Source: Heliorestis convoluta
Lineage (GTDB): Bacteria > Bacillota > Desulfitobacteriia > Heliobacteriales > Heliobacteriaceae
Direction of reading: 5' to 3'
Assembly (NCBI RefSeq): GCF_009649955.1
Contig: NZ_CP045875.1
Span: 1,779,501 to 1,843,500 of the forward strand
Length of the DNA: 64,000 nt
The notes beneath the pieces were generated by a model. It was not told the origin of the DNA. It was given only the letters and a program-made list of their open reading frames with translations, and did not search any database. Positions 46,192 through 62,799 of the stretch are shown here, piece by piece (the first letter of the stretch is position 1; every line of letters starts with the position of its first letter). The translations under genes and the position numbers were made by a program.

Positions 46192-46371
46192 TTAGTCTTC
46201 ACAGTCTTCACAAGTATCTACAAATTCCAGTGGACAAACTTCAGGACTTTCGGCATCGGGATCATCCGAAATTTTACAGCCTACATAACCTTTGTGTACT
46301 GTCATATGTTCGCATGTTAGACAATCGACGGAGAGTGGGCATTCGCAGATAGCACATGTTATTTCAGGCAT
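46192..46371 (-). CDS. Small cysteine-rich protein, 59 residues
   Basis: This frame was found by eye. It reads MPEITCAICECPLSVDCLTC at its start and ends VDTCEDCED, with nine Cys, giving a CxxC, CxxxxxCxxC and a terminal CxxC. The pattern suggests a zinc- or Fe-S-binding mini-protein (inference); no family is recognised. ATG 46371 is preceded by AAGGAGAT at good spacing. It lies behind the M28 peptidase on the same strand and a decayed copy of its first third survives at 49238-49306, which supports it as a real gene. Confidence 0.72.
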   Translation of the reverse strand: MPEITCAICECPLSVDCLTCEHMTVHKGYVGCKISDDPDAESPEVCPLEFVDTCEDCED

Positions 46372-46457
46372 CGTTTATCTCCTTTCCTTTTACTTTGTTG
46401 AAAACTATAGACGTTAATAAATATTCTTGTGTTAATGACTGATATTCTAATTTCTTC

Positions 46458-46488
46458 AAGACTGACCTGTGGGAGGTCAGTCTTTTTT
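46458..46488 (+). terminator. Hairpin between the peptidase and the Cys-rich gene
   Basis: AAGACTGACC, seven bases, GGTCAGTCTT and six T on the plus strand. No plus-strand gene precedes it. A second copy is at 49312-49343. Confidence 0.6.
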
Positions 46489-46510
46489 ATGCTCGCCAGG
46501 CATGGGTTGT

Positions 46511-47422
46511 CTATGTCTTATCGATTTCTTGCATTACCGCAGAAAAGCCCGATACAACTTGAGCCATTTTTTCATAATCTAAGGTTTCAAGGGTATCTCT
46601 TAAAGTATGATAATGCGGGTTGCGGTAAAAGGCTGTATCGGTAATCATCACAGCCCGATAACCTTCTTCCCAAAATGACCAGTGATCGGATAAATCCATA
46701 TCCATCAATGGGCCATGAGGGATGATTTGACGATTGGTAATCATCGGTACAGTTGATTTCTGATTAAATGCAGCATCCATGCGCTCTAAATAAGCAATTT
46801 CATTGGAATTTCCGATTGCAGCAATGAAGTTGCTATCACTTGGGGCTATCGTGCTTAAGATACCATCCAAATCACCGAAGTGACTCCAGTTAGGCGGTTG
46901 ATCCGTATAATAGCCAATCATTTCAAAGATAATGGCTAGTTTAATCTTTTCATTCCGTTGGCGAGCCTTTTGAGCGTAAACAAAACTGCCCATATAAGGA
47001 GACTTAAAAAAGGGGGGCTCTTCATTGGTAAAAGCAATAAATTTAACAGTTTTCTGTAAAGGAACATTTTTCAACAGTCGTGCCAATTCGAGCATACCAG
47101 CGATACCGCTGGCATTATCATCTGCACCGGGGCTATCTCCACAGGAATCATAATGAGCTCCCACAATGACAACCTCATCGGGTGTGGCTATCCCTGGTTT
47201 TATGGCAATAATGTTGCGATAAGACAGCGGACTTCCTATGGGAGCATCCTTACGAGAGATTTCAAATTCCTGAATCTGAACCTCATATCCCATTGAAGCA
47301 AGTTCTTCATGAATATAATCAGCAGCCTGCTCTAATCCGTTGTAATAGCTGTAATTTCTTGGCCCGATCTCAGCGGCCAACTTTTCTACATGCTTTTTTA
47401 AGTTGAAACAAAGTGACTCCAT
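46511..47422 (-). CDS. M28-family zinc metallopeptidase
   Basis: A 303-residue co-catalytic zinc aminopeptidase-like protein without a signal peptide. Seen: VGAHYDSCGDSPGADDNASG (His and Asp metal ligands), AFTNEEPPFF (catalytic Glu and ligand Glu), EMIGYY (ligand Asp replaced or shifted) and a late His in NPHYHTLRDT. ATG 47422 has AGGAGG seven bases upstream; GTG 47425 is a less likely start. It lies 23 bases behind the phosphatase gene on the same strand. It is absent from the decayed duplicate of this operon near 49.3 kb. Confidence 0.88.
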   Translation of the reverse strand: MESLCFNLKKHVEKLAAEIGPRNYSYYNGLEQAADYIHEELASMGYEVQIQEFEISRKDAPIGSPLSYRNIIAIKPGIATPDEVVIVGAHYDSCGDSPGADDNASGIAGMLELARLLKNVPLQKTVKFIAFTNEEPPFFKSPYMGSFVYAQKARQRNEKIKLAIIFEMIGYYTDQPPNWSHFGDLDGILSTIAPSDSNFIAAIGNSNEIAYLERMDAAFNQKSTVPMITNRQIIPHGPLMDMDLSDHWSFWEEGYRAVMITDTAFYRNPHYHTLRDTLETLDYEKMAQVVSGFSAVMQEIDKT

Positions 47423-47444
47423 CACCGCACCTCCTAAATTTCAT

Positions 47445-47879
47445 TTACATATGGTTTTTGTTTTGATTAGAACCTTTTATCCACTGAATAATTGATTGGA
47501 ATCTACGATCTGGGCAAACAATGGATCGAATGCTTTTCAGTCTTCTATAGGCTTTTTCATAACCCATTTCTTCAGCCATGAGCCATAAGGCCAATGTTGC
47601 AGAACGAGATATTCCCATATGGCAGCTAATCAATATTTTCTTGTTTTGTCTTCTTGCAGTATCGATAATTAATTTGGCAATGGGGTATATTTTTTTAGCA
47701 GCTTTTTCATCACCATCTAAAAAAGGCATTCTAATTACGACTACATTTTCTGGAATTTTAATAAATAGATTATCAATGTCTTCATCTCGAAAATCGATCC
47801 AAATATCGACTCTATCAATTATGCTTTCTACTTCTTCTTCGCCACCTAAATATAACCAGGGGAAAATTTTCGTGGCCAT
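47445..47879 (-). CDS. Dual-specificity (DSP) protein phosphatase
   Basis: A 144-residue compact DSP. The catalytic loop is SCHMGISRSAT, a CX5R motif with Cys and Arg intact, and the general-acid Asp is likely in FLDGDEKAA. The N-terminus ATKIFPWLYLGGEEEVE is typical of small DSPs, and the C-terminus has the YRRLKSIRSIVCP helix. ATG 47879 has AGGAGG upstream; TTG 47885 is too near the site. First gene of an operon (phosphatase, peptidase, Cys-rich protein) driven by the palindromic promoter at 48003-48051. Confidence 0.87.
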   Translation of the reverse strand: MATKIFPWLYLGGEEEVESIIDRVDIWIDFRDEDIDNLFIKIPENVVVIRMPFLDGDEKAAKKIYPIAKLIIDTARRQNKKILISCHMGISRSATLALWLMAEEMGYEKAYRRLKSIRSIVCPDRRFQSIIQWIKGSNQNKNHM

Positions 47880-48002
47880 ATACAATCATCCTCCTATTCG
47901 TTTCATTAGAAATTTATAGAACAAAGGTTGTAGTTATTCAAGGTAACATGGCATTTTTAATACTTGACTTTATTCAATTTTCAAAGAACATCTTGCATAA
48001 CC

Positions 48003-48051
48003 ATTATATTACAGACAGAAAAAGAAAACATGTCACGGGGTGACATGTTTT
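48003..48051 (-). promoter_or_regulatory. Palindromic promoter A (phosphatase operon)
   Basis: Minus strand: AAAACATGTCAC, three bases, GTGACATGTTTT (a perfect 12-3-12 inverted repeat, 48025-48051), then TATAAT at 48003-48008. From the end of GTGACATGT to TATAAT is exactly 19 bases. There is no recognisable -35 box. The leader shares TTCTTTGA, AATTGAATAAA with promoter C. Confidence 0.8.
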
Positions 48052-48249
48052 GAAATAAGTATGTGGAGGGTTTAAAGAAGTCAGTCTTATGAAAAAGAAA
48101 GATATCTACTGAAAGAAGTTAATTTTGAGTTGTAATCAGCTCTCATAGCATAGTTTAAATTAAGAATGACCTTTATGCTAAGAACCATATGGGACCACTC
48201 TTATATACAGAACAACTAAAGAAGTGAAGTATTTTCATTAAATGTTTAC

Positions 48250-49014
48250 TTAGCGCATACGAGGTGGAGACATTATTTTATAAAGAAATATACCAATTAA
48301 AAAGTTATAGTTACTATTCCAAAGATCTGATACCTTTGGATCATTCCAACCATCTCTTCCTATTTCATATATAATATTTTTCAATAGAAGATTAAGTCTT
48401 AAACTACCAGTGCCAGGTAAAGAAAAAGGAGAGTCACTTTCGTTTCGTGAACTAATAATACCAAGTTCATATAAAAAATATAACAAATGAGCTCTATTAT
48501 AAATAGGTAGAAACTTCTTTGGATGGTAGAGATAAGCTATTTTACCTTTAAGTAAATACTTATTTGAAAGTAAATTATTTGAACTAAGTGCTCTTAATGT
48601 GTTACCATCGCAGACGTCAATTAGTTCAATGATGTCATTCCTTAATTTATTCCAAGCATCATCTAAAGAAGCAAAACGTTGATTATATATATATTTTTGC
48701 TGGTTTCTATTGTATACGACTGTAAAGTTTCTTGCATCAATAAAAAGACTTCTTGTGCTACCTAGTTTTTCCAATTCAAATACTACCCAATAAATAAACG
48801 AATTCCTTTCAAAATAAGCATATTGCTCAACAGTCATAGAACATAAAGATTCACGAGGAAACTTCCTGTAAAATTCTGCTTTTTTTCGTAAAATATCACG
48901 AAGTTCGTCCTGTTTACTTTGTACATTTATATATTCGAAAAGAAATTCTTCCATCTTATTTTTAAATTCAAGTCTTACATTCTCATCTAACTTTCTTTGT
49001 AATTCATTAATCAT
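48250..49014 (-). CDS. McrB-N-like domain protein, AT-rich, no ATPase domain
   Basis: A 254-residue hypothetical protein, clearly richer in A and T than its neighbours. The run FPRESLCSMTVEQYAYFERNSFIYWVVFELEKLGS and the later KGKIAYLYHPKKFLPIYN resemble the domain found N-terminal to the AAA module in McrB-type restriction proteins (from memory; unconfirmed). No Walker motifs exist, so it would be an orphan specificity-like part. ATG 49014 is preceded by GGGGCTGTTTTAGAGG. The context (between the two copies of the phosphatase block) suggests acquisition. Confidence 0.55.
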   Translation of the reverse strand: MINELQRKLDENVRLEFKNKMEEFLFEYINVQSKQDELRDILRKKAEFYRKFPRESLCSMTVEQYAYFERNSFIYWVVFELEKLGSTRSLFIDARNFTVVYNRNQQKYIYNQRFASLDDAWNKLRNDIIELIDVCDGNTLRALSSNNLLSNKYLLKGKIAYLYHPKKFLPIYNRAHLLYFLYELGIISSRNESDSPFSLPGTGSLRLNLLLKNIIYEIGRDGWNDPKVSDLWNSNYNFLIGIFLYKIMSPPRMR

Positions 49015-49237: not shown

Positions 49238-49306
49238 TTATAAGACAACTGTCATATGTTCGCATGTTAAGCAATCAACTGAGAGTGGATAATCGCAGAT
49301 AGCACA
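49238..49306 (-). pseudogene. Relic of the Cys-rich small-protein gene
   Basis: Translates to CAICDYPLSVDCLTCEHMTV, then a stop at 49238-49240. This matches residues 6-25 of the 59-residue protein at 46192-46371 with two differences. The start codon and ribosome site are missing, as is the last half. Confidence 0.75.
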
Positions 49307-49311
49307 TTTTT

Positions 49312-49343
49312 AAGACTGACTTGTGAGAGGTCAGTCTTTTTTT
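49312..49343 (+). terminator. Second copy of the AAGACTGAC hairpin
   Basis: AAGACTGAC pairs with GTCAGTCTT and seven T follow. It corresponds to the hairpin at 46458-46488 and is part of the duplicated block. Confidence 0.65.
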
Positions 49344-49376
49344 AGTGCGCCTGACATGCATTGTCTATATCATCTG

Positions 49377-49573
49377 TTTTGATTAGAAGCTATTATAGAT
49401 TGAATAATTGATCGAAATCTACGATCTGGGCAAACAATGGAACGTATGCTTTTCAGTTTTTCATAGGCTTTTTCATAACCTATTTCTTCGCCATAAGCCA
49501 TAAGGCCAATGTTGCTGAGCGAGCTATTTTCCATATGACAGCTTATTAATATTTTTTCATGTTGCCTTCTTGC
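49377..49573 (-). pseudogene. Relic of the DSP phosphatase gene (C-terminal third)
   Basis: Frame reads ARRQHEKILISCHM and continues to YEKLKSIRSIVCPDRRF and SNQNR, parallel to the intact phosphatase. The catalytic CX5R loop is broken (CHMENSSLS, no Arg), and the N-terminal two thirds are gone. Nucleotide similarity stops at about 49573, inside the 3' end of the helicase gene. Confidence 0.78.
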
Positions 49574-52500
49574 TTCAATTCTTCCTCCGTAAAGCATATC
49601 ATCGCTCCAACGATAGGCATATGAATCCATGCTTCATAGACGGAACAACCTGTTGCTTTATAAAGAGCCTCGGCGTAAATCCGAAGTTGTGGTAGATGCT
49701 GTATACCGTGGGATAACCATTTTGATTCTTTGCCTGGAAAGGTTTTATGATCTATAATCACCCATCCCTTGGGTGTACGAAGTAACAAATCAACCCATCC
49801 TGTTGCCTTTTGCAAACCTTGGCGCAAATGAACAGGGTATTCACGATGTCTTTCGAGAATTTCTGGGTAATGCTGCGACAGGAAATGTTCTAGCTGGTCG
49901 GTAGCTTGTATTAATGAATCTTCTGACAGCCCATAGATTTCATATCTTTGTAGAAGTGCTTGAGCCATTGCCTGTCTCTCGGTCTTCGATTTTGCGGGAT
50001 TATCTGCAGCTAAAAATGCATGAACCATTTCACCGAGAACTGCCATGTCTGGTTTACCTGATAGTGGGAGGCGATTATCCATGCTATGTATTTTAGATAA
50101 GTTTATGTCGATATTTTTTTGTGCTTGGGGGCCGCTCTCGCTATCATTCAGATTTGGATCAAATTTTTGTTCACTGGGATTAAAACGTGCAGGTAATAAT
50201 ACTCTACTTTCTTCTCTTTTTCCTACATAAAATACTTCTGTCTCTACCGTGGATGCTACAGCTTCTTCTGATGGTACAATAGATAAAAGTCGTACTTTAC
50301 AAGGAAAGGATTTGTCATTCACTTGAATTATCCCATCAGCACCTTCTAGAGCAGATGGATCCTCATCTTCATGGACAATAGCGATTTTTTCAATTACTTC
50401 TTGTCCGTCCTTGGCGGTTAATTCTTTAAGCCAATAAGCTTTGGAGAAATCACGGGTTGCCAATACAAGGTAATCTCGTGCCCGCGTCATACCAACATAG
50501 AGTATTCGTTGGTTTTCATCGAGAAGCAACTGTTTTTTTCTTAGTAGTTCAGGTGCCTTTTCTACATGCCCGTCTAGTGCAACGTTTGTAGATTGTTTAC
50601 TGTACGGCCAAGGCCAATAATAAAGACATCGACCATTAAGAGGAGCATCTATCTTATAAGGCATTCTACTAACTGCTGTTACTTGATTAAATACCGGTGG
50701 CGGACCTTGCCTTTGTGACGATCTCTCTAATGAATTCAAAATAACAAAAGACCATTCCAATCCTTTCGCTTTATGATAAGTTAAGACACGAATTGCTTTG
50801 TGATCAGTTGATTCTCCCATGCGGTTTAAATCTTTGTTCGTTTTTACATTTTGAAGATACATAAGAAAGCCAATCGTTGTTGCAGCTGTACCATTGGTTT
50901 CTGAAACTTCTTCATATTGTAAAGCTAAAGAACGGAGTGCATCCAAGTTTGCTAAGCGTTGATCACTTTGACCCCATCGCAATGAAACTTCATCAACTTT
51001 TGCAATTACGATAGCTAAGTCTAAAACTTCTGATGGGCTCATTTGTGCAATTTTTTCTCGAGCTATATACAATTCTTGGACAATAGGCTCATTACCTGTA
51101 ATAGCTACTTGTTTTTCTCTTGGAATCCAATTGGATAACCAGGCTCCTTCTCTCCAATGATCTGATGAAAAATGTATGATTTCAGTGAGAGCCAGGGTGT
51201 CATTTTTGTCAACCAAATAGCGCATAGATGCAATTGCATACACAACTTCTGGCGTAGACAACAAGCCACTTTCTCCGACGGTCGCTGAAATACCTATTTT
51301 GGAAAGAGCTTCAGCTACTATCGAACAGTCCTCATTCGATCTACAGAGAATGGCTATATCGCCTGGTTGCAGTGAACGAAGTTGGCGAGTTTTTTTATCT
51401 TCAATTAAGTATTTTTCTTTTTGATGTAGGACATTTTGCACGCCTATAGCTAAGAAAGCCGCATCTTTTTCTTTACTGCCTCTAGTTTTGCCTGGGTATT
51501 GGTAAGACCATGTTTCTATGGAAACTCTTTGCTTCTCATTGTCAACACGCTTTGGATCTAATTTGATTTTATCTTCTGATATCCCTTTCGCTTTAAAAAC
51601 AGGAACAAAGAGGGCATTTACAAACTGGACAAGAGATTCCCTCGAACGATAGGAAGCATCTAGTACTTCTATATTCACATCTTCAATACTGTCCATAGCT
51701 TTTTTCATCAGTTCTGGGTCAGTCCCTCGAAAACCATATACGGCTTGTTTAACATCTCCAACCCAAGTGGCTTTCTTTGCAATTTCAAGAAGTTGCATAT
51801 TCAGAGCAATTTGTAGCGGACTAGAGTCTTGGAATTCATCGACAAAGACTTCAGAAATTCTATCTTGTAATACTTCTAGATTATCTTTGTTTTTCAGTAA
51901 AGTAAGAGCCAATGATTCTTGATCAGTAAAGTCAATCCATCCACGTTTGCTTTTTTCGTTGGAATATATCTCCATTGCTTCTGCTGCGCAATGAAATAAA
52001 GCAAAGATACATTCTTTCATATCTTGATGCAATCTCGGATGACGATCATGAAGGGAAGCTGCTGCAACAATCGGTGATATAGCATCTCGACTTCTTGCCC
52101 CAGGACTTAATTTGCTTAATTTAGCCCAATTATACCAAGATAAGGATTCATAGCGACTCCATTCTCTCAGCGTTTTATCAATTGTATCAATGACCTCTTC
52201 AGTAGCCTTAGTTGTATCTCCTTCAGGAAGCTTGGGTCTGACCATTCTCAAAGCCGAACGTAATCTTTCATCCATTTGCTCAGGACTTTCTGATGCACTT
52301 GGCAGCCAAGGAGTCATAATGCTCCAGGAGTAATCGGCGCATTTTTTTACATCTCTTGGATCTAATCCATTTTGACGGGCCAGTTCAATGATTCGTAATA
52401 TTTTTTGACGCCAATCGTCTTGACCAAGTCGAAAGAATACCTGCTTGTAATCATGGTAGTATCTATCGATTACTTCAGCAGCAATGTTGTTAAATAATGT

Positions 52501-52824
52501 AGAAGACTCTGTTTCTGCCAATACCTTTTGCACCGGTGATAAGCCCATCTCTAGTGCAAACTCGCGCAACAGTCGTCCAAATACGCTGTTCATCGTTCCA
52601 ACGTAACCATCTAAAATCCTTGTAGCTGACTTGTTGTCTCCTGATTCTAGAAGCTTAAGGCGAACCCTTTCAATCAACTCATCGGCTGCCTTGGTTGTAA
52701 AAGTAGTTGCCACAATATTTTCTGGAGGGATACCACTTTGAATCGCTTGTAATATCTCGTCAGACAACCGAGAAGTTTTTCCTGCGCCTGCTCCAGCACT
52801 TAATATTTTCAGCTTTTCACTCAT
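49546..52824 (-). CDS. AddA-like helicase/nuclease
   Basis: A 1092-residue UvrD-type helicase with a C-terminal PD-(D/E)XK nuclease, likely the motor of a double-strand-break resection complex. Seen: Walker A SAGAGAGKTS near the N-terminus, FVDEFQDSSPLQIAL (motif II), VLTYHKAKGLEWSFVIL, LYVGMTRARDYL (motif VI), and GWVDLLLRTPKGWVIIDHKT (nuclease Asp and D-x-K). ATG 52824 has AGGAGG eight bases upstream; a longer frame starts inside the preceding gene. The last nine or so codons lie in phosphatase-derived DNA. Confidence 0.88.
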   Translation of the reverse strand: MSEKLKILSAGAGAGKTSRLSDEILQAIQSGIPPENIVATTFTTKAADELIERVRLKLLESGDNKSATRILDGYVGTMNSVFGRLLREFALEMGLSPVQKVLAETESSTLFNNIAAEVIDRYYHDYKQVFFRLGQDDWRQKILRIIELARQNGLDPRDVKKCADYSWSIMTPWLPSASESPEQMDERLRSALRMVRPKLPEGDTTKATEEVIDTIDKTLREWSRYESLSWYNWAKLSKLSPGARSRDAISPIVAAASLHDRHPRLHQDMKECIFALFHCAAEAMEIYSNEKSKRGWIDFTDQESLALTLLKNKDNLEVLQDRISEVFVDEFQDSSPLQIALNMQLLEIAKKATWVGDVKQAVYGFRGTDPELMKKAMDSIEDVNIEVLDASYRSRESLVQFVNALFVPVFKAKGISEDKIKLDPKRVDNEKQRVSIETWSYQYPGKTRGSKEKDAAFLAIGVQNVLHQKEKYLIEDKKTRQLRSLQPGDIAILCRSNEDCSIVAEALSKIGISATVGESGLLSTPEVVYAIASMRYLVDKNDTLALTEIIHFSSDHWREGAWLSNWIPREKQVAITGNEPIVQELYIAREKIAQMSPSEVLDLAIVIAKVDEVSLRWGQSDQRLANLDALRSLALQYEEVSETNGTAATTIGFLMYLQNVKTNKDLNRMGESTDHKAIRVLTYHKAKGLEWSFVILNSLERSSQRQGPPPVFNQVTAVSRMPYKIDAPLNGRCLYYWPWPYSKQSTNVALDGHVEKAPELLRKKQLLLDENQRILYVGMTRARDYLVLATRDFSKAYWLKELTAKDGQEVIEKIAIVHEDEDPSALEGADGIIQVNDKSFPCKVRLLSIVPSEEAVASTVETEVFYVGKREESRVLLPARFNPSEQKFDPNLNDSESGPQAQKNIDINLSKIHSMDNRLPLSGKPDMAVLGEMVHAFLAADNPAKSKTERQAMAQALLQRYEIYGLSEDSLIQATDQLEHFLSQHYPEILERHREYPVHLRQGLQKATGWVDLLLRTPKGWVIIDHKTFPGKESKWLSHGIQHLPQLRIYAEALYKATGCSVYEAWIHMPIVGAMICFTEEELKQEGNMKKY

Positions 52825-54176
52825 TGGTCCAACCTCCTTGAGCCACAAAGATTTTGATAGTCGCAATAATCACAGGATGGTTCTATAAGGGGTGTAAAGG
52901 TGTTGTCATGTTCCGCAGTTGTTGCTATTCCTGAAGCAATTACAGTTCCTTGTGAAAGTTGGGACCAAACGTCATTTACTGATTTACGTATTGTCATAAT
53001 GGAATCAAGCAATGAAGGGCCATCAACATGGTAGTCGGAGGGGATATCCTCATGAGGTCGAGAGAAAAATTCACCACCCCGTAACATAAAATAAGCTACA
53101 GGTAGTTCTTCTGTCTCTTTATCAGATAAAAGCCAATGATAGAGAGACAATTGGACAGAGAGCTTGGACAAACGTTCTTTGTACTTTTTTGGTTTTCCTG
53201 ACCATTTTGCGTCAATCAGTATTTTCTTACCTGTTGCCGTTTCTCCAATAAGATCGAGAGTGCCTTTAAATTGGACTGTTTCAGACCACTTTTTTTGTAG
53301 ACTGATTTCCGTATTATGAATTCGAATACCTGCGTTACGTAAAAGGGCAAAAAACTGTGCCATTGAATTTTGCAAGTGAAAACGCATATCGTTTCTTTTT
53401 ATACCATTGTGTAACTCTAATAAGGGTGCTGCTAACAAGGGAGACCATTCATCAAAGAGTTCTCCTGTGCGTTTGCTTACTTCATCTTCTTTCCAAGTCG
53501 ATTTTTCCGTAATCAATATTTCTAAAATTTTATGACCGATTTTTCCGAGAATAAGAGACTCATGTGGTATAGAAAGTGCATTTCCTGCTCTTACTTTTGC
53601 TACATAACGAAGGGTCCAACTCAATGGACAAGATACTAAACGTTCAAAACTCGTAGCTGATTCTACTTCCTGAGGTAATACTGAATTTGCTGAAATTTCC
53701 CAATTTCGAATCGGAGCGGGGATATTACGACCCGTTAATACTTCTCTTGAAAAAGATATTTCACCAAGAGTAAAATTTTGATTTTTACGTAATTCTGATG
53801 CCGTGATTGTAAATTTGCTTTCCAAAGAATGATCCTTTGCCATGGCGTGACGAATTTCATCCCAAAAAGGGTGTATTGGAATTTCTTTTCCTTTCACTTT
53901 GGCAGGCACAAAGAGAATTAATCTTCTGTTGGCAAATTTTGCAGCACGGTGCCAAGAAGCAGCTTCTCTCTGGCGCACTACATGCTCATCGATAAGGAAA
54001 AGGCCTTGCTGGTGAAGCCACGAGCGCTCTTTCGATGTCCAAGTCCTAATAGGGGGTCCGGACATGTTTTTATGAAAGCCCCACCAGAGAATGGTATCTG
54101 CTTTGCCCCAGATTTGGCCTGGATGATGAACCATTTGCCATGAAGAAGCTTCTTGAAACGTAATCTGATAACCTAG
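52821..54176 (-). pseudogene. AddB-like nuclease, C-terminal part (downstream of a frameshift)
   Basis: The frame encodes about 450 residues, opening LGYQITFQEASSWQMVHHPG and continuing through PD-(D/E)XK residues FKGTLDLIGETATGKKILIDAKW. The iron-sulphur cysteines of AddB-type nucleases are visible: one in SFERLVSCPLSWTLRY and three in CDYCDYQNLC near the end. An ATG at 54134 gives 437 residues, but it has no ribosome site. The N-terminal part lies in another frame (54070-55530). It overlaps the AddA-like start by four bases. Confidence 0.75.
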
Positions 54177-55530
54177 ACCCTTCTCCCATAACAGAGTCCA
54201 ATATTCTTGTCACTTGTAAACGAGAAACAGAGTTTTCGCCGAGTGTTTTAACGCCTTCTATGACTTCTTTTGCATACTCCATGACATGGTGATAGATAGA
54301 TTCATTGGTGAAAAGGCTCTGGTTCATGGCCCATTGACTGACTTTCTGACATATCTGGATTAATTTTTCAAGTGGAATTCCTTCGTGCACGTCGTAATAA
54401 TCATGATTTATCCATAAAGTAAGCTTCTCGTCTAAACTTTTACGGCGCTTTTGGATCTCAGATGGCTCAAGTTCCTGCGAAAGCCATAGCTCTTCATATT
54501 CCTTTGTACCGTCCTCAAGGGCTTGCACCCATTGCGGACCGCCAATACCAGGTGTATCTGCTAAGACTCTCGCTAATTTATATCGAATGCGCCCAGGGAC
54601 TGGTGAAGATGGAATCGTTAATAATTCCATCACTCTTTCAATTCGTAGGGGCTTCCAATAGGTATCAATGGTAAGGGGTAAGACTTGAAGAACTGATCGC
54701 CATTTGGACAATCCATCGACACCAGGAGCTGGAAGACCGCGACGATGTAGATATTCGTCAAGGAATAAAGAACCATTCCCTTTGATTAGAATAGTTTTTT
54801 CTGAGCCTTTTTCTTGCAACCAGCTTGTTAAAAAGTCTGCTCCATCCCATTCCTGTTCGGACCGTATTAGAAGTAAGCTACCATCGCCACGAGCCTCTCC
54901 AGTAGGGGCTTCGCCCGCTAAAATTTTTTGAAGAAGGGATAAGTCTGAAAGTGGCTTTTCTTCTTCTTTTTCCTTAAGAACATCTTCTTTTAGGACTTTT
55001 ACACCAAGGCGTTTTACCTCATTTATCAAACTGATAGACCAAGGATCCCATAAAGTTTCGTCTTTATCTACAATTGTAATCCTATCAATCGGCAAGTGGT
55101 CTTCTTTTTGTAATGTAGCTAGCAATGCGCGGACTCTATCTGGAAAACCCTTTTTGCCATCCTTATTGGCACGTTCTAACTGAGCTAGAGTATCAATCCA
55201 TATACCTCCACCTACATGGATCGTGGGATCCCAACCTGCCAAGACCAACTCATCACGACGGCGTAACAATTCTTTTGCTGTATTCCATGAATCTGTTTCA
55301 AAAGACTTAGAAAAGGGCATATTGCCTGTATCGTGCTGGCGTATCAACGCCTGCCATTCTGCAATTCGTAGATTTTCTGATACTTTCGGTGAAGTTAGAC
55401 CTAACTGCGTTTCTAATACCCCAATGAAGCCTTTAAAACCTGTTACGAATGTACCTACTGATGCGTCTCTATAACCCAGTGCATCAGGGTAAGCGACAGA
55501 ATCTAGCCAATGACCAAGGATTATATGCAA
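54070..55530 (-). pseudogene. AddB-like protein, N-terminal part (upstream of a frameshift)
   Basis: Start TTG 55530, with GGAGGG seven bases upstream. The 486-residue frame begins MHIILGHWLDSV and covers the inactive helicase-like region of an AddB-type subunit (LLQKILAGEAPTGEAR, DFLTSWLQEK, GLPAPGVDGLSKW). Homologous sequence continues in the +1 frame after MGEG. Removing one base at 54177 would give MGEGLGYQITFQEASSW, a smooth join. No Walker A motif is seen, unlike Bacillus AddB. The break may be a true mutation, a sequencing error or, less likely, recoding. Confidence 0.75.
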
Positions 55531-57746: not shown

Positions 57747-57800
57747 TTAAAACACCTCCAAAAAATTTTATTCAATTATCAAAGAAGATTTTCTGTAATC

Positions 57801-57849
57801 AGTATAAGACAGACAGAAAAAGAAAACATGTCACGTGGTGACATGTTTT
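57801..57849 (-). promoter_or_regulatory. Palindromic promoter C (AAA ATPase)
   Basis: Minus strand: AAAACATGTCAC, three bases, GTGACATGTTTT (57823-57849), then TATACT at 57801-57806, with exactly 19 bases from GTGACATGT to the -10 box. The 12-base arms are identical to promoter A and the spacer begins TTTCTTTTTCTGTCTGT in both. Confidence 0.8.
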
Positions 57850-57937
57850 AAAATCGTGTTTAGAGGAAAATATTAAGTAGATAACAAATTATTAGAATCT
57901 GAACTTCCGAATTATTCATGGATATGTTATGATAACA

Positions 57938-57998: not shown

Positions 57999-58127
57999 AA
58001 GATATTTTAAAAAATATAAAAGAATTGCAAAAAGATAGTTGATCCTGCCGTTTTACATTTGTTGGTTCTGCATTGTGGCTTTGTGTATTTATAAACTTAA
58101 AACTTAGTGAATCATATTATACAAAGT

Positions 58128-58181
58128 AAAAATCCCATTGCGTCCTATTTAAATTTAATTAAATAGCGCAATGGGATTTTT
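58128..58181. terminator. Strong bidirectional terminator of the AT-rich cassette
   Basis: A 15-bp perfect outer stem, AAAAATCCCATTGCG with CGCAATGGGATTTTT, with a further inner CTATTTAA/TTAAATAG stem. It overlaps the stop codon of the 350-residue gene. Confidence 0.9.
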
Positions 58182-59232
58182 ACTTTATTAATGCAGGTTC
58201 TTTTATCCAAACTCCAAGATAACAACCTTGCTCAAATACTGTTGAAACAATTAATTGCCAAAACTTTTTTGTTAATGTAATATCATCTTCCTTTGAATCT
58301 ATATGATTTTTGAAAGCTTCTAAGATAGTTATTCCATTATAATTAAAATTAGGAGTATTAATTGGTTTCAGATTAATTTTTAAAAAGTGTCCAAAAATAT
58401 TCTCAGTTAAAATAATTTTACCAAAAGAACATTTTTCCGTGTCAGTATTAAATGCTTGACAAGGAACAAAGCTAAACATTTCATTCACGGGGTTATCATA
58501 AGTAGCTCCTTTGTAAATAATAAATTTTTTTTCAGTATCTGTTATAAAATATTGTCCATTTTTTTTATTTAATCTTTCAAAAATTTTTTCTAAAACTACA
58601 TTTTTAAATATTTGATATTTTTCATCACTAAATTTATTAAATTGAGGATAATCACTTTTGTTGATGTGTATAGTATTATCTCCAACAACAAAAACAGTAT
58701 CTAGTTCCATGTAAACTGTTTCTTTGTTAAAAACTTTACCAGGGGTACCAAACAAAATAATATCACCTTTTTGAAGTCGAATCATTTCTCCGCGTTGTTT
58801 GCAATTAGTATAGAAAAAATTATCTCCAAAAACATATGGATCTGTATTTTGAAGATAAACACCTGATTCTTTTTTTATCTTATATACATGATGTAAATAT
58901 TTTGGGCGCTTAGAATTCCGTATAATACTAATGATATTATCTTTTATACTATCATTAGTATAATTAATAGTCTCGAAAGTAGTAGCAGGTTCCCATTCAC
59001 CCCAAAAAGTGATATCTCCTAATAAAGGTGGTTTGTTTAACGAAGAAATATATTTTCCATAGGCCTTCATAAATTTTCTATAATGCTCACCATCATTCCA
59101 AGGCATATATCTATTATTTATTGCTTGGGATAAATTAAAAGTATGATAATCATTATTGCTTTTTTCCTTCATTGGAATAAAATTTTTTAAATGTTCACCA
59201 CCACTATGACCAAACAATACAATTCTAGGCAA
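58180..59232 (-). CDS. AT-rich hypothetical protein, 350 residues
   Basis: Not recognised. The protein starts MPRIVLFGHSGGEHLKNFIP and includes DITFWGEWEPATTFE and a basic, Tyr-rich middle (YLHHVYKIKKESGVYLQ). Two cysteines occur in TNCKQRGE and VPCQAF. It has no membrane segment. Start TTG 59232, with GGAGGTG nine bases upstream. It begins three bases after the stop of the 256-residue gene. Both genes are far richer in A and T than the rest of the window, pointing to a foreign source. Confidence 0.68.
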   Translation of the reverse strand: MPRIVLFGHSGGEHLKNFIPMKEKSNNDYHTFNLSQAINNRYMPWNDGEHYRKFMKAYGKYISSLNKPPLLGDITFWGEWEPATTFETINYTNDSIKDNIISIIRNSKRPKYLHHVYKIKKESGVYLQNTDPYVFGDNFFYTNCKQRGEMIRLQKGDIILFGTPGKVFNKETVYMELDTVFVVGDNTIHINKSDYPQFNKFSDEKYQIFKNVVLEKIFERLNKKNGQYFITDTEKKFIIYKGATYDNPVNEMFSFVPCQAFNTDTEKCSFGKIILTENIFGHFLKINLKPINTPNFNYNGITILEAFKNHIDSKEDDITLTKKFWQLIVSTVFEQGCYLGVWIKEPALIK

Positions 59233-59235
59233 GAC

Positions 59236-60006
59236 TCAATACACCTCCATCTTTCTTAAGGAATCTTGAATAAATTCATTTGTCATAGCACCAAAAGGTG
59301 TTCCTCTCATATTTCTACCATTATAAATATAAATATCATTATATTTATACTTTCTAACAAAGCCGTTACTTTGATTTTCAAAAGATACGACAGCATCTTC
59401 TTTCGATCTTATATTAAATAGTGACTTTAAACTGCTAGAACTAATTGAGGCCATAATAATACTAGGATTTAAATATTCTATAAGATCGTTTAACAATGGT
59501 TGAAAATCTTCTATTAAGCTATCCTTAATACTATTATTAATCTTTCCCCATTTTTCTTGTGTTGCTAACGGACATAAATCTATATGTAATGCATAATTTG
59601 AGTACCTATAATCACCTGTTTTACCACCATACGTTGAATTAATATAATTTAAAGGTGTTTCTAATCTGCGAAACCAACTATTATATGGTTCATCTTCAAA
59701 ATATTTATTTAATGTCTCAACATATATTAATTTATCTTCATTACTTAGACTATTTTTAAAGTATATCTCGGCACCTCTCTTAAAGCGAATAAAACTATAT
59801 GGATCATCTTTATTTAGTTTAAACTCGTCATTAGATGGATTAATAGCTAAAGTAACTACTTTTTTATGACTATTTTTATATTTCGAATAATTTCCAAACC
59901 ATAAAATTGGGATACTTGGTTTCACTATAAAAGCGTTATCCTTACCCCTATATTTTACATATAAATACCAACTTTTTTCAATTATTGAATTCAATTGACT
60001 GTCCAC
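59236..60006 (-). CDS. AT-rich hypothetical protein, 256 residues, possibly UDG-fold-like
   Basis: Function unknown. The blocks VVTLAINPSNDEF, DPYSFIRFKRG, EPYNSWFRRLETPLNYINS and ALHIDLCPLATQEKWGKI look like a family with a uracil-DNA-glycosylase-like N-x-N-P-S and a later D-L-C motif (weak recall, low certainty). The product has no signal peptide or membrane helix. ATG 60006 follows GAGGAGGAAT. It sits between the WYL regulator and the 350-residue protein in one minus-strand operon. Confidence 0.65.
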   Translation of the reverse strand: MDSQLNSIIEKSWYLYVKYRGKDNAFIVKPSIPILWFGNYSKYKNSHKKVVTLAINPSNDEFKLNKDDPYSFIRFKRGAEIYFKNSLSNEDKLIYVETLNKYFEDEPYNSWFRRLETPLNYINSTYGGKTGDYRYSNYALHIDLCPLATQEKWGKINNSIKDSLIEDFQPLLNDLIEYLNPSIIMASISSSSLKSLFNIRSKEDAVVSFENQSNGFVRKYKYNDIYIYNGRNMRGTPFGAMTNEFIQDSLRKMEVY

Positions 60007-60027
60007 AAAATTCCTCCTCTTTACTAA

Positions 60028-61050
60028 CTACTCCCTATACTTACCCGCCATAGCCTCAGCAATTTCTCTCAATCGCTCTCGAAAAGACAGCGGTTCCAAC
60101 ACTTCAATGAGAGCTCCCCAGCGCAGAACCCAACTGATCATACCTTCCCAGGTATCTACGTTAAAAGTTGCAGTAACGGAACCATCGATGTTATCTTCCA
60201 GTTGTTGCGAATGATGGTACTGAATATTACGAAGATCTTCAGCAGCCGTACCTTCTGCATGGATTCGAACAGTTATTGTTTTTCCAGAGCGGTTTATCAT
60301 GGCTGACCAAGTATTTTCCAAATGCTGAACCAGTGAAAAATTTTCAGGATAGACAAAAGGCTCGTTGGATACTTCTAAATCTTTCATACGATCGAGTCGA
60401 AAAATCCGCTCTTCTTTTTTGTTCAGACAATAAGCAACAAGATACCATCGTTCGTCTCGATTAAAAAGTCCCAGGGGATGAATTCGTCTTATTCTATTGT
60501 TATAGCGAATTCTCATGATGAGCTCTTGTCCCAGTGCTTTTGTGCAGAGATCTAATTTTGAGGAAATATCACTGCTATTTTTTTGTTGAGGCTCAAAGTA
60601 TAGAATTCGTTTTTTCATTTTTTCCGTGTACTCATTAAACTTTTGAATTTGCAAAAGATGATAAAGCATCCAGCCATTTTCATTTCGTTCTTGACTTTTG
60701 GCCATCGGTCTTTTTTCCATTCTTTCAAGCATTAAAGAAAGCCAGAATAAGCGTTGTTCATTCATGTGAGCAAGAAAAGGTGGCTCTAAAAGAAATCGGC
60801 GAGGATTACTCTTAGATTGACGTCCCGGACCGGGTGAATGGAAAGTTACACCTGCTTCTTCTGATATTTCTTTAAGTTCTTTAATCATACGTTGAACTTG
60901 TCTTGAATCGACTTGACAGTTCTCATCAAAAAAATCTTCAAATGTCATGCCGCCTTCCGGAAAGCTATGAAACAGTTGAAACATCATTCTCGCCATCCGC
61001 TTACTTGGTGAATCCTTAAGCCGGCCTCTTTTTTGTTTTGCTTGATCCAT
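60028..61050 (-). CDS. WYL-domain transcriptional regulator
   Basis: A 340-residue DNA-binding protein. An N-terminal winged helix-turn-helix (about residues 10-75, SKRMARMMFQLFHSFPEGGM and QVQRMIKELKEIS) precedes a WYL domain near 180-260, with RWYLVAYCLNKKEERIFRLDR as the signature, and a WCX-like tail. WYL proteins bind ligands such as nucleotides or ssDNA and often control defence or DNA-damage genes. ATG 61050 has GGGAGG upstream; a longer frame to 61065 runs through that site. It is the second gene of its operon and a candidate regulator of promoters A-D. Confidence 0.88.
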   Translation of the reverse strand: MDQAKQKRGRLKDSPSKRMARMMFQLFHSFPEGGMTFEDFFDENCQVDSRQVQRMIKELKEISEEAGVTFHSPGPGRQSKSNPRRFLLEPPFLAHMNEQRLFWLSLMLERMEKRPMAKSQERNENGWMLYHLLQIQKFNEYTEKMKKRILYFEPQQKNSSDISSKLDLCTKALGQELIMRIRYNNRIRRIHPLGLFNRDERWYLVAYCLNKKEERIFRLDRMKDLEVSNEPFVYPENFSLVQHLENTWSAMINRSGKTITVRIHAEGTAAEDLRNIQYHHSQQLEDNIDGSVTATFNVDTWEGMISWVLRWGALIEVLEPLSFRERLREIAEAMAGKYRE

Positions 61051-61116
61051 CTTGACCTCCCTCAAAAAGTACGGAAGACTTTTTACACAGTATGGCTTTG
61101 TACAATAGGGAGAGAA

Positions 61117-62280
61117 TTATGTAATGTTCGGTATTGTCAATGCAAAAGCTTTTCCTTGGGCAAGATGCTCTGGCTTTATAGAAGGCCATTCGTAACGATG
61201 GCCAAGGCCTGAGATATCTACTAAACTTCTGCATTGCATCGGAAAGATTTGTTCTGGCTTCTTCATCAATAGGGGTAACCACTCGGCCAAGGGCAAAGCC
61301 AATAAAGTATCTTGATTTTTACAAAAGTTTATCTCTTTGAGATTTGTTAAGTTATCTCCCGTCATCACAATAATGACGGGAAAAGAGCTTCCGTCTTTCA
61401 ACATAAGAAATCCAAAAGTCCGAAGGGATAAGATTTTTCCTTTGCTTTCTTCTTTACAGATGATAGGATTTTTTCTTTTTTTGAATAAAAAATCACGTGC
61501 AGATTTTTCATCAGGACAGGAAGCAATACTACTTGGCGATGAAAATAGATGTCTCTTTTTTTCTTCAAATCCCCAGTGTAAAAAGTAGGAATCATAGTTG
61601 CTTCTCATCTGATGAAAGCCTGGGAATAGGATTTGACTCATCTGAGCTTTGACTTCGCCATCTTGAAGTTCAGCAATCAATTCAGTGATAGGCTTTTGGC
61701 GATATAACTCAGATAAGCTGATTAAACCGTGAAACGCCTGCTGCTTAATTGCCTCAAGATTTTCTTGATTTGATACATCGCTTCCTCCAACATGAGGGTT
61801 TATAGAAGAACTACTCTCTAAAAGTTGCTCTTCTTCAAGGGAGCCTATTTCATCAAAAAAACCTTCTAACCCACCCTCTGGTCCGATGGCTTTTGCGTAT
61901 TTCACAGCCAAGTCCTCAACATAGTCATAGGCAACATCTAAATTGCATGATGGACATAGCGGTGGACGATGGTTCTCACCCATCGGATAGTGGACCGTTG
62001 GTTCCTTACAAACAGAACAATGGTAACTATAATGATCAAGCAGATAGTTGCCCCAAAAAATAAAGGGATGTTCACTGTGTTTTGCTTTCTCAACAATAGA
62101 GATGTAAGTAGGATCTGACATAGTAGTAACAGCGACGGTAGAGCGGTCTTCTAATAGCAGAATTCGGTCGGGAGAGCTCTCTCGCTTTTTGGAATGATAG
62201 ATAAGCAAGCTATAGACAGACCCATTGCGTTCTACTTTGCTAATAGATTTTCCAGGAATCAACCAGGAGAAATAAGCCAA
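61117..62280 (-). CDS. Zinc-ribbon-containing hypothetical protein, 387 residues
   Basis: Not recognised. It has an N-terminal beta-rich region (MAYFSWLIPGKSISKVERNG), a zinc-ribbon-type CSVCKEP with CPSC about 25 residues later (near residues 87 and 109), an acidic, Ser-rich linker (about 145-170), then a C-terminal half with GFLMLKDGSSFPVIIVMTG. Start TTG 62280, with AAGGAGGGGG upstream. It is the first gene of the operon with the WYL regulator and the AT-rich pair. Confidence 0.7.
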   Translation of the reverse strand: MAYFSWLIPGKSISKVERNGSVYSLLIYHSKKRESSPDRILLLEDRSTVAVTTMSDPTYISIVEKAKHSEHPFIFWGNYLLDHYSYHCSVCKEPTVHYPMGENHRPPLCPSCNLDVAYDYVEDLAVKYAKAIGPEGGLEGFFDEIGSLEEEQLLESSSSINPHVGGSDVSNQENLEAIKQQAFHGLISLSELYRQKPITELIAELQDGEVKAQMSQILFPGFHQMRSNYDSYFLHWGFEEKKRHLFSSPSSIASCPDEKSARDFLFKKRKNPIICKEESKGKILSLRTFGFLMLKDGSSFPVIIVMTGDNLTNLKEINFCKNQDTLLALPLAEWLPLLMKKPEQIFPMQCRSLVDISGLGHRYEWPSIKPEHLAQGKAFALTIPNIT

Positions 62281-62331
62281 AAAACCCCCTCCTTATTAAA
62301 AGTAACTTACTTTTTTAGTTAACCAGCCATG

Positions 62332-62542: not shown

Positions 62543-62631
62543 CACCACAGGGTAGCTATTTTCGTGTTAGCTTTACAAGTCCAACGCACTCTTTTCCGCA
62601 TTATACCATCAAAGATATTGCTTACGGAACC

Positions 62632-62677
62632 ATTATATAACAAATAGACATAGGAAACATGTCACAGTATGACAGCG
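62632..62677 (-). promoter_or_regulatory. Palindromic promoter D (zinc-ribbon/WYL operon)
   Basis: Minus strand: CGCTGTCAT, three bases, GTGACATGT, exactly 19 bases, TATAAT at 62632-62637. The GTGACATGT half is perfect; the left half is partly degenerate. It drives a leader of about 345 bases into the 62280 gene, passing through the inverted-repeat element. A second TATAAT lies at 62600-62605 on the same strand. Confidence 0.7.
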
Positions 62678-62799
62678 TTTCACTTTCTCATAAATTTTTC
62701 AATAAAAATTAATTTCTTAGCAGGAATACCTTGAACAAAGTCGAACTTGTACAAAGTCAAAGAAACATATACAGCCGAGATCATTTCGTAGGGGGCTCT

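Follow-up and report, generated by a model that had tools for sequence, protein, structure and literature searches.

We analysed a 64,000-nucleotide window of the Heliorestis convoluta genome (contig NZ_CP045875.1) in which four minus-strand genes are packed into an operon, the last two of them an AT-rich pair that is probably a distant relative of the anti-phage system Brig3-BapA. The coordinates of the open reading frames (ORFs) are those of the original prediction, made from sequence alone; these and the tight packing, with three bases between the last two genes, were confirmed. The first gene (61117-62280) encodes a 387-residue zinc-ribbon-like protein with a CxxC...CxxC pattern. It is followed by a 345-residue WYL-WCX transcriptional regulator (60028-61065, with the ATG at 61050 as the likely start), a 256-residue protein predicted to be a Brig3-like DNA glycosylase (59236-60006, GTG start) and a 350-residue BapA-like protein (58180-59232, TTG start). 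The gaps are 51, 21, and 3 bases in that order, and each start in the operon is preceded by a good ribosome-binding site. An intrinsic terminator at 58123-58186, a perfect 20-bp inverted repeat with a 24-nt loop, closes the cassette. Seventeen nucleotides upstream of the first start codon lies a perfect palindrome, AAAAGTAA-C-TTACTTTT (62298-62314), a candidate operator that occurs once in the window; palindromes of such kind, of any sequence, number nine per 64 kb.

The pair had been described as strikingly A/T-rich, and at about 27% GC against a window mean of about 43% it is. The two genes have GC contents of 27.1% and 26.5% (18% and 16% at third codon positions), the WYL and zinc-ribbon genes 40.1% and 39.8%, and same-size segments across the window 42.7 +/- 4.1%. 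The pair is the lowest-GC stretch of the window, equally low values being reached by 2 of 622 sliding windows. This is consistent with the pair having recently joined an operon whose composition is ordinary, and we infer that the cassette recently entered a WYL-regulated island. In an empty-site comparison with genomes of the same genus and family, the flanking genes had no usable matches. Both proteins have many homologues, so these AT-rich ORFs are more than chance ORFs.

Folds and invariant residues of the two proteins

Single-sequence searches of Pfam, NCBIfam, PADLOC, PHROGs, and PDB sequences with the AT-rich pair returned nothing above noise, and viral contigs and phages, scanned in the same single-sequence way, gave no matches. 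The entry point to the 350-residue family was a Synechocystis plasmid remnant, which supplied a two-row alignment for a search of a species-level genome collection. This found 55 loci of the family in about a dozen phyla, and one viral contig. Family profiles of both proteins found nothing among PDB sequences, in a PDB copy with no recognisable Brig3 entry.

The 256-residue protein had been credited with a weak uracil-DNA glycosylase (UDG)-like look, and structure prediction bears this out. Its AlphaFold2 model (15 sequences; predicted local distance difference test score, pLDDT, 88.9) is best matched in the VIA comparison by the Sulfolobus family-4 UDG (4zbx/4zby; Z 11.6, root-mean-square deviation 3.4, 172 residues), with UdgX, SMUG1, and TDG next; all 50 of the structural matches listed belong to the UDG superfamily. 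The Pfam model of canonical UDGs (PF03167) does not match the window protein, and the best value in a homologue is E 0.16, short of the cut-off. A canonical UNG with ordinary GQDPYH and HPSPLS motifs is separately encoded in the host genome, which argues that the 256-residue protein is not the host's repair enzyme.

The pocket of the model is formed by F37, N56-P57-S58-x-x-E61, Y108, W111-F112, and H141-x-D143. Across the 15-sequence alignment, every one of these residues is invariant except at position 108, which is Tyr or Phe. The closest known counterpart is Brig3, described with its partner BapA in a preprint of February 2026 (PMC13160076). In the crystal structure of Brig3, F31, N50, P51, S52, R53, E55, Y97, W100, F101, H125, and D127 lie in or adjoin the pocket for 5-hydroxymethylcytosine (5hmC). 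F31, N50-P51-S52-R53-x-E55, Y97, W100-F101, H125, and D127 align with F37, N56-P57-S58-N59-x-E61, Y108, W111-F112, H141, and D143 of the window protein, with identical spacing inside each block, so that 10 of the 11 pocket residues are present and R53 becomes N59. One homologue (L019) has all 11 at a single offset of +1 and agrees in 13 of the 21 residues named (next best offset, 4). As a control, the maximum among 402 further proteins encoded at the same loci is five. Brig1, an anti-phage glycosylase, also has the UDG fold, and its best structural match is the same archaeal UDG (PMC11078745). However, Brig1 has a Q81/W122/Q147 pocket and a different operon, whereas the window protein has E61/W111/D143, with E61 and D143 invariant in 15 of 15 sequences; these two are of the Brig3 type rather than the Q/Q of Brig1. 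The 256-residue protein is very probably a DNA glycosylase of modified bases.

The AlphaFold2 model of the 350-residue protein (43 sequences) has a pLDDT of 79.7 and a predicted template modelling score of 0.86. Its top Foldseek rows are ZmASCH, at an E of 0.38 that is not significant by itself, and all 15 VIA rows are of ASCH/EVE/PUA type at Z values of 2.0 to 4.5, an exclusive but weak match. Among these rows are structures solved with methylated DNA: THYN1 with 5-methylcytosine (5mC) DNA and McrB domains with m5C DNA. The Pfam ASCH and EVE models match 0 of the 43 family members. Modified-base binding is known for EVE domains and the McrB N-terminal domain, and the window protein may share the PUA-like fold type of these and of ASCH domains; it differs in having no Pfam match, in its length of 350 residues, and in its family-specific invariant motifs, WGEWE and QNTDP. 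In the 43-member alignment the invariant residues are H9, W45, H50, R52, W77, E79, E81, Q128-N129-x-D131-P132, C144, F161-G162, and D178.

The published model of BapA, the sugar-removing partner of Brig3, is ASCH-like and was set beside ZmASCH, and D101 of BapA is essential (PMC13160076). The equivalent of D131, in the QNTDP motif, is present in 43 of 43 members of the window family and is numbered 95-107 in nine of them (100 and 101 in L006 and L013); it is the only invariant aspartate close to the BapA numbering. Fold, aspartate numbering, and gene order agree, and on these grounds BapA is the best reading of the 350-residue protein. We consider it fairly likely that this protein removes sugars from masked bases.

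Pairing of the families across genomes

In a frame-by-frame profile search, 19 of the 55 loci, from six phyla (Chloroflexota, Actinomycetota, Bacillota, Acidobacteriota, Bacteroidota, and Armatimonadota), have the two families next to each other on the same strand. In 15 of these 19 the glycosylase gene precedes the partner gene, and most of those measured overlap it by 4 to 11 bases. In Peribacillus saganii (L031) the two homologues are fused into a single reading frame. When the whole genomes of the 40 holders of the 350-residue family without a first-pass glycosylase match were scanned, four glycosylase genes came to light, all adjoining the 350-residue gene, and no unlinked copy. The adjacent glycosylase genes of L024, L038, L051, and L055 were detected by a stop-to-stop frame scan. 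The divergence of the two families is correlated over 16 pairs (Mantel r 0.71, with 0 of 10,000 permutations as high), a value to which shared ancestry of the hosts contributes. Among 299 genomes of the phylum, the pair is found in one, the window's own.

A single origin of the pairing is not supported. The glycosylase label changes at least 13 times on the weakly resolved tree of the 350-residue family, not clearly fewer than in shuffles.

Function of the pair and competing explanations

We consider it likely that the AT-rich pair is an anti-phage cassette of Brig3-BapA type and distantly related to that system. Both have the same two-gene order with overlapping or touching ORFs, and a UDG-fold enzyme with the F, NPSxxE, YxxWF, and HxD pocket; the partner, ASCH-like in BapA and probably so here, has an aspartate that is essential in BapA and, at a similar position, invariant in the window family. 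Brig3-BapA came from one soil DNA clone, in an island without a match among deposited sequences (PMC13160076). The main text sections consulted mention no WYL or zinc-ribbon gene for that clone, whereas the window pair is AT-rich and stands behind a WYL operon. Even the nearest of the homologues found share no more than 40% identity with it. The original prediction of a new DNA-targeting defence or DNA-repair cassette holds best for defence, but the cassette is not wholly new, as pocket residues, partner fold, and gene order point to Brig3-BapA. Defence as the purpose is argued by analogy with Brig1 and Brig3 and from gene neighbourhoods. In the window, the operon is surrounded by a PD-T4-1-like gene, an AAA ATPase gene that gives profile scores of IetA type, a UvrD/PD-(D/E)XK helicase gene, and its PD-(D/E)XK partner. 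Elsewhere, the pair comes after HmaABC (L052) or overlaps a PRTase-CE ATPase gene (L009).

On this interpretation, the 350-residue protein would act first on sugar-masked bases, likewise by base flipping, and would hydrolyse the sugar via D131, exposing the substrate of its partner. The 256-residue protein would flip a 5-modified pyrimidine (5hmC or similar) from invading phage DNA into its aromatic pocket and cut the glycosidic bond, and the resulting abasic sites would block phage replication. Host DNA would be spared because the modified base is absent from it.

Several points weigh against this interpretation. Brig3 R53 is replaced by N59, and BapA D101 is equated with D131 by position alone. 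For the partner, Z does not exceed 4.5 and the Foldseek E is 0.38, a weak fold match that a common barrel could explain. The majority of the loci of the 350-residue family (36 of 55) have no glycosylase gene. Membership in the Brig3-BapA type is judged here from residues, fold, and gene order rather than from the sequences of Brig3 and BapA themselves (record PX942695), and function is read from genes and predicted structures. To our knowledge, no phages with modified bases are known for this host.

The same mechanism may act on other hypermodified bases, such as the 5-hydroxymethyluracil (5hmU) derivatives of phages of Gram-positive hosts. The 5-hydroxymethyl group is present in both 5hmC and 5hmU. 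It is the group that the pocket glutamate of Brig3 contacts (PMC13160076), and the host is by its gene content a Bacillota-type organism. In its other features, however, the pocket corresponds to that of Brig3; we regard this variant, which is compatible with a Brig3-BapA-like cassette, as possible if rather doubtful. In a less probable alternative, the 350-residue protein would be no sugar hydrolase but a reader of modified bases, like McrB N-terminal and EVE domains, whose binding to modified phage DNA would recruit the glycosylase or license it. The THYN1 and McrB structures with methylated DNA among its fold matches are in keeping with this, as are the Peribacillus fusion and operonic coupling, and a reader would suit the PD-(D/E)XK nucleases that also adjoin the family. 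But the sixteen-odd near-invariant polar and aromatic residues, several of them acids, look catalytic, and BapA released glucose and formed no stable complex with Brig3 (PMC13160076); we therefore think a reader unlikely. A host repair cassette for uracil or oxidised pyrimidines, which would suit the UDG fold and the residual uracil activity that Brig1 (PMC11078745) and Brig3 (PMC13160076) retain, is very improbable given the patchy presence in the phylum, the AT-rich composition, the island setting, a prophage copy (L059), the host UNG, and the failure of the protein to reach the Pfam UDG cut-off.

Island setting, regulation, and wider distribution

The WYL regulator had been correctly identified; its WYL and WCX domains are solid (Pfam E 7e-16 and 6e-16, about 1e-15), with solved WYL relatives, and its helix-turn-helix (HTH) is not recognised by Pfam. 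The zinc-ribbon assignment stands as far as two visible CxxC motifs go, but the profile match is below the cut-off (Zn_ribbon_8, E 0.011); searches of 40 related genomes and of plasmids turned up no relative of this protein. The proposed link of the pair to a WYL gene holds at the window locus but not in the homologous loci: a WYL gene adjoins the pair in none and lies further off in two. Neither it nor the zinc-ribbon gene, which likewise does not adjoin the pair elsewhere, is a constant part of the cassette. By position and by analogy with the BrxR/CapW-type regulators, WYL-WCX proteins that head defence operons (PMC9122601, PMC9122588), the WYL protein probably controls the operon; unlike them, it has the unrecognised HTH noted above and an operator that is a candidate only.

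Two 88-nt upstream blocks (47969-48056 and 57767-57854; 86% identical) each contain CATGTCAC-N3-GTGACATG. This palindrome has only two copies in the genome, upstream of a dual-specificity phosphatase gene and of the AAA ATPase gene, and a decayed third copy of the block lies at 62598-62685. These palindromes are possibly operators of an island regulator.

The PD-T4-1-like gene (48250-49014; profile E 3.9e-15) is also AT-rich (28.8% GC) and is flanked by partly duplicated stretches (46298-47656 and 49248-49572). The UvrD helicase gene (49546-52866) has a C-terminal PDDEXK_1 domain; a homologue 68% identical to it (L081) lies near repeats that by eye resemble a CRISPR array. Its PD-(D/E)XK AddB-like neighbour (52821-55530) occupies two overlapping frames, of 486 and 437 residues, where a relative with 66% identity from a genome of the same family has one 918-residue frame, and the split is a frameshift or sequencing error.

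Other Brig3-like glycosylase genes have varied company. On the prophage contig L059 (6482-8717) one follows a ParB-like/DNA methyltransferase gene near terminase, and in a Leptospira plasmid operon (L060, 4943-7504) one stands with genes for a thymidylate synthase homologue and a 262-residue protein. In several Bacteroidales (L005, L016, L033, L040), a BapA-like gene is directly upstream of genes for long secreted leucine-rich proteins, BspA-like by eye.

In four loci without a glycosylase, a PD-(D/E)XK-type gene adjoins the 350-residue homologue (L020, by Pfam PDDEXK_4; L041, L025, and L044 by sequence reading, with no Pfam match). Together with the absence of a glycosylase from 36 loci and the linkage changes on the tree, this suggests a module that has been gained, lost, and recombined. 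We tentatively suggest that the 350-residue family could be a general unmasking or modified-base module found across a dozen phyla and repeatedly recombined with different DNA-destroying effectors: Brig3-like glycosylases, PD-(D/E)XK nucleases, and the Peribacillus fusion. The partner family in any case extends far beyond the pair, and neither protein is detected by the defence and protein-family catalogues consulted (Pfam, NCBIfam, PADLOC, PHROGs). The pocket residue signature can be used to annotate Brig3-BapA-like pairs, which are now placed in a sequenced genome, here within a WYL operon, and in 19 further genomes in six phyla, and so in testable hosts. If the module reading is correct, bacteria would own a modular answer to the hypermodified DNA of phages that is listed in no catalogue searched.
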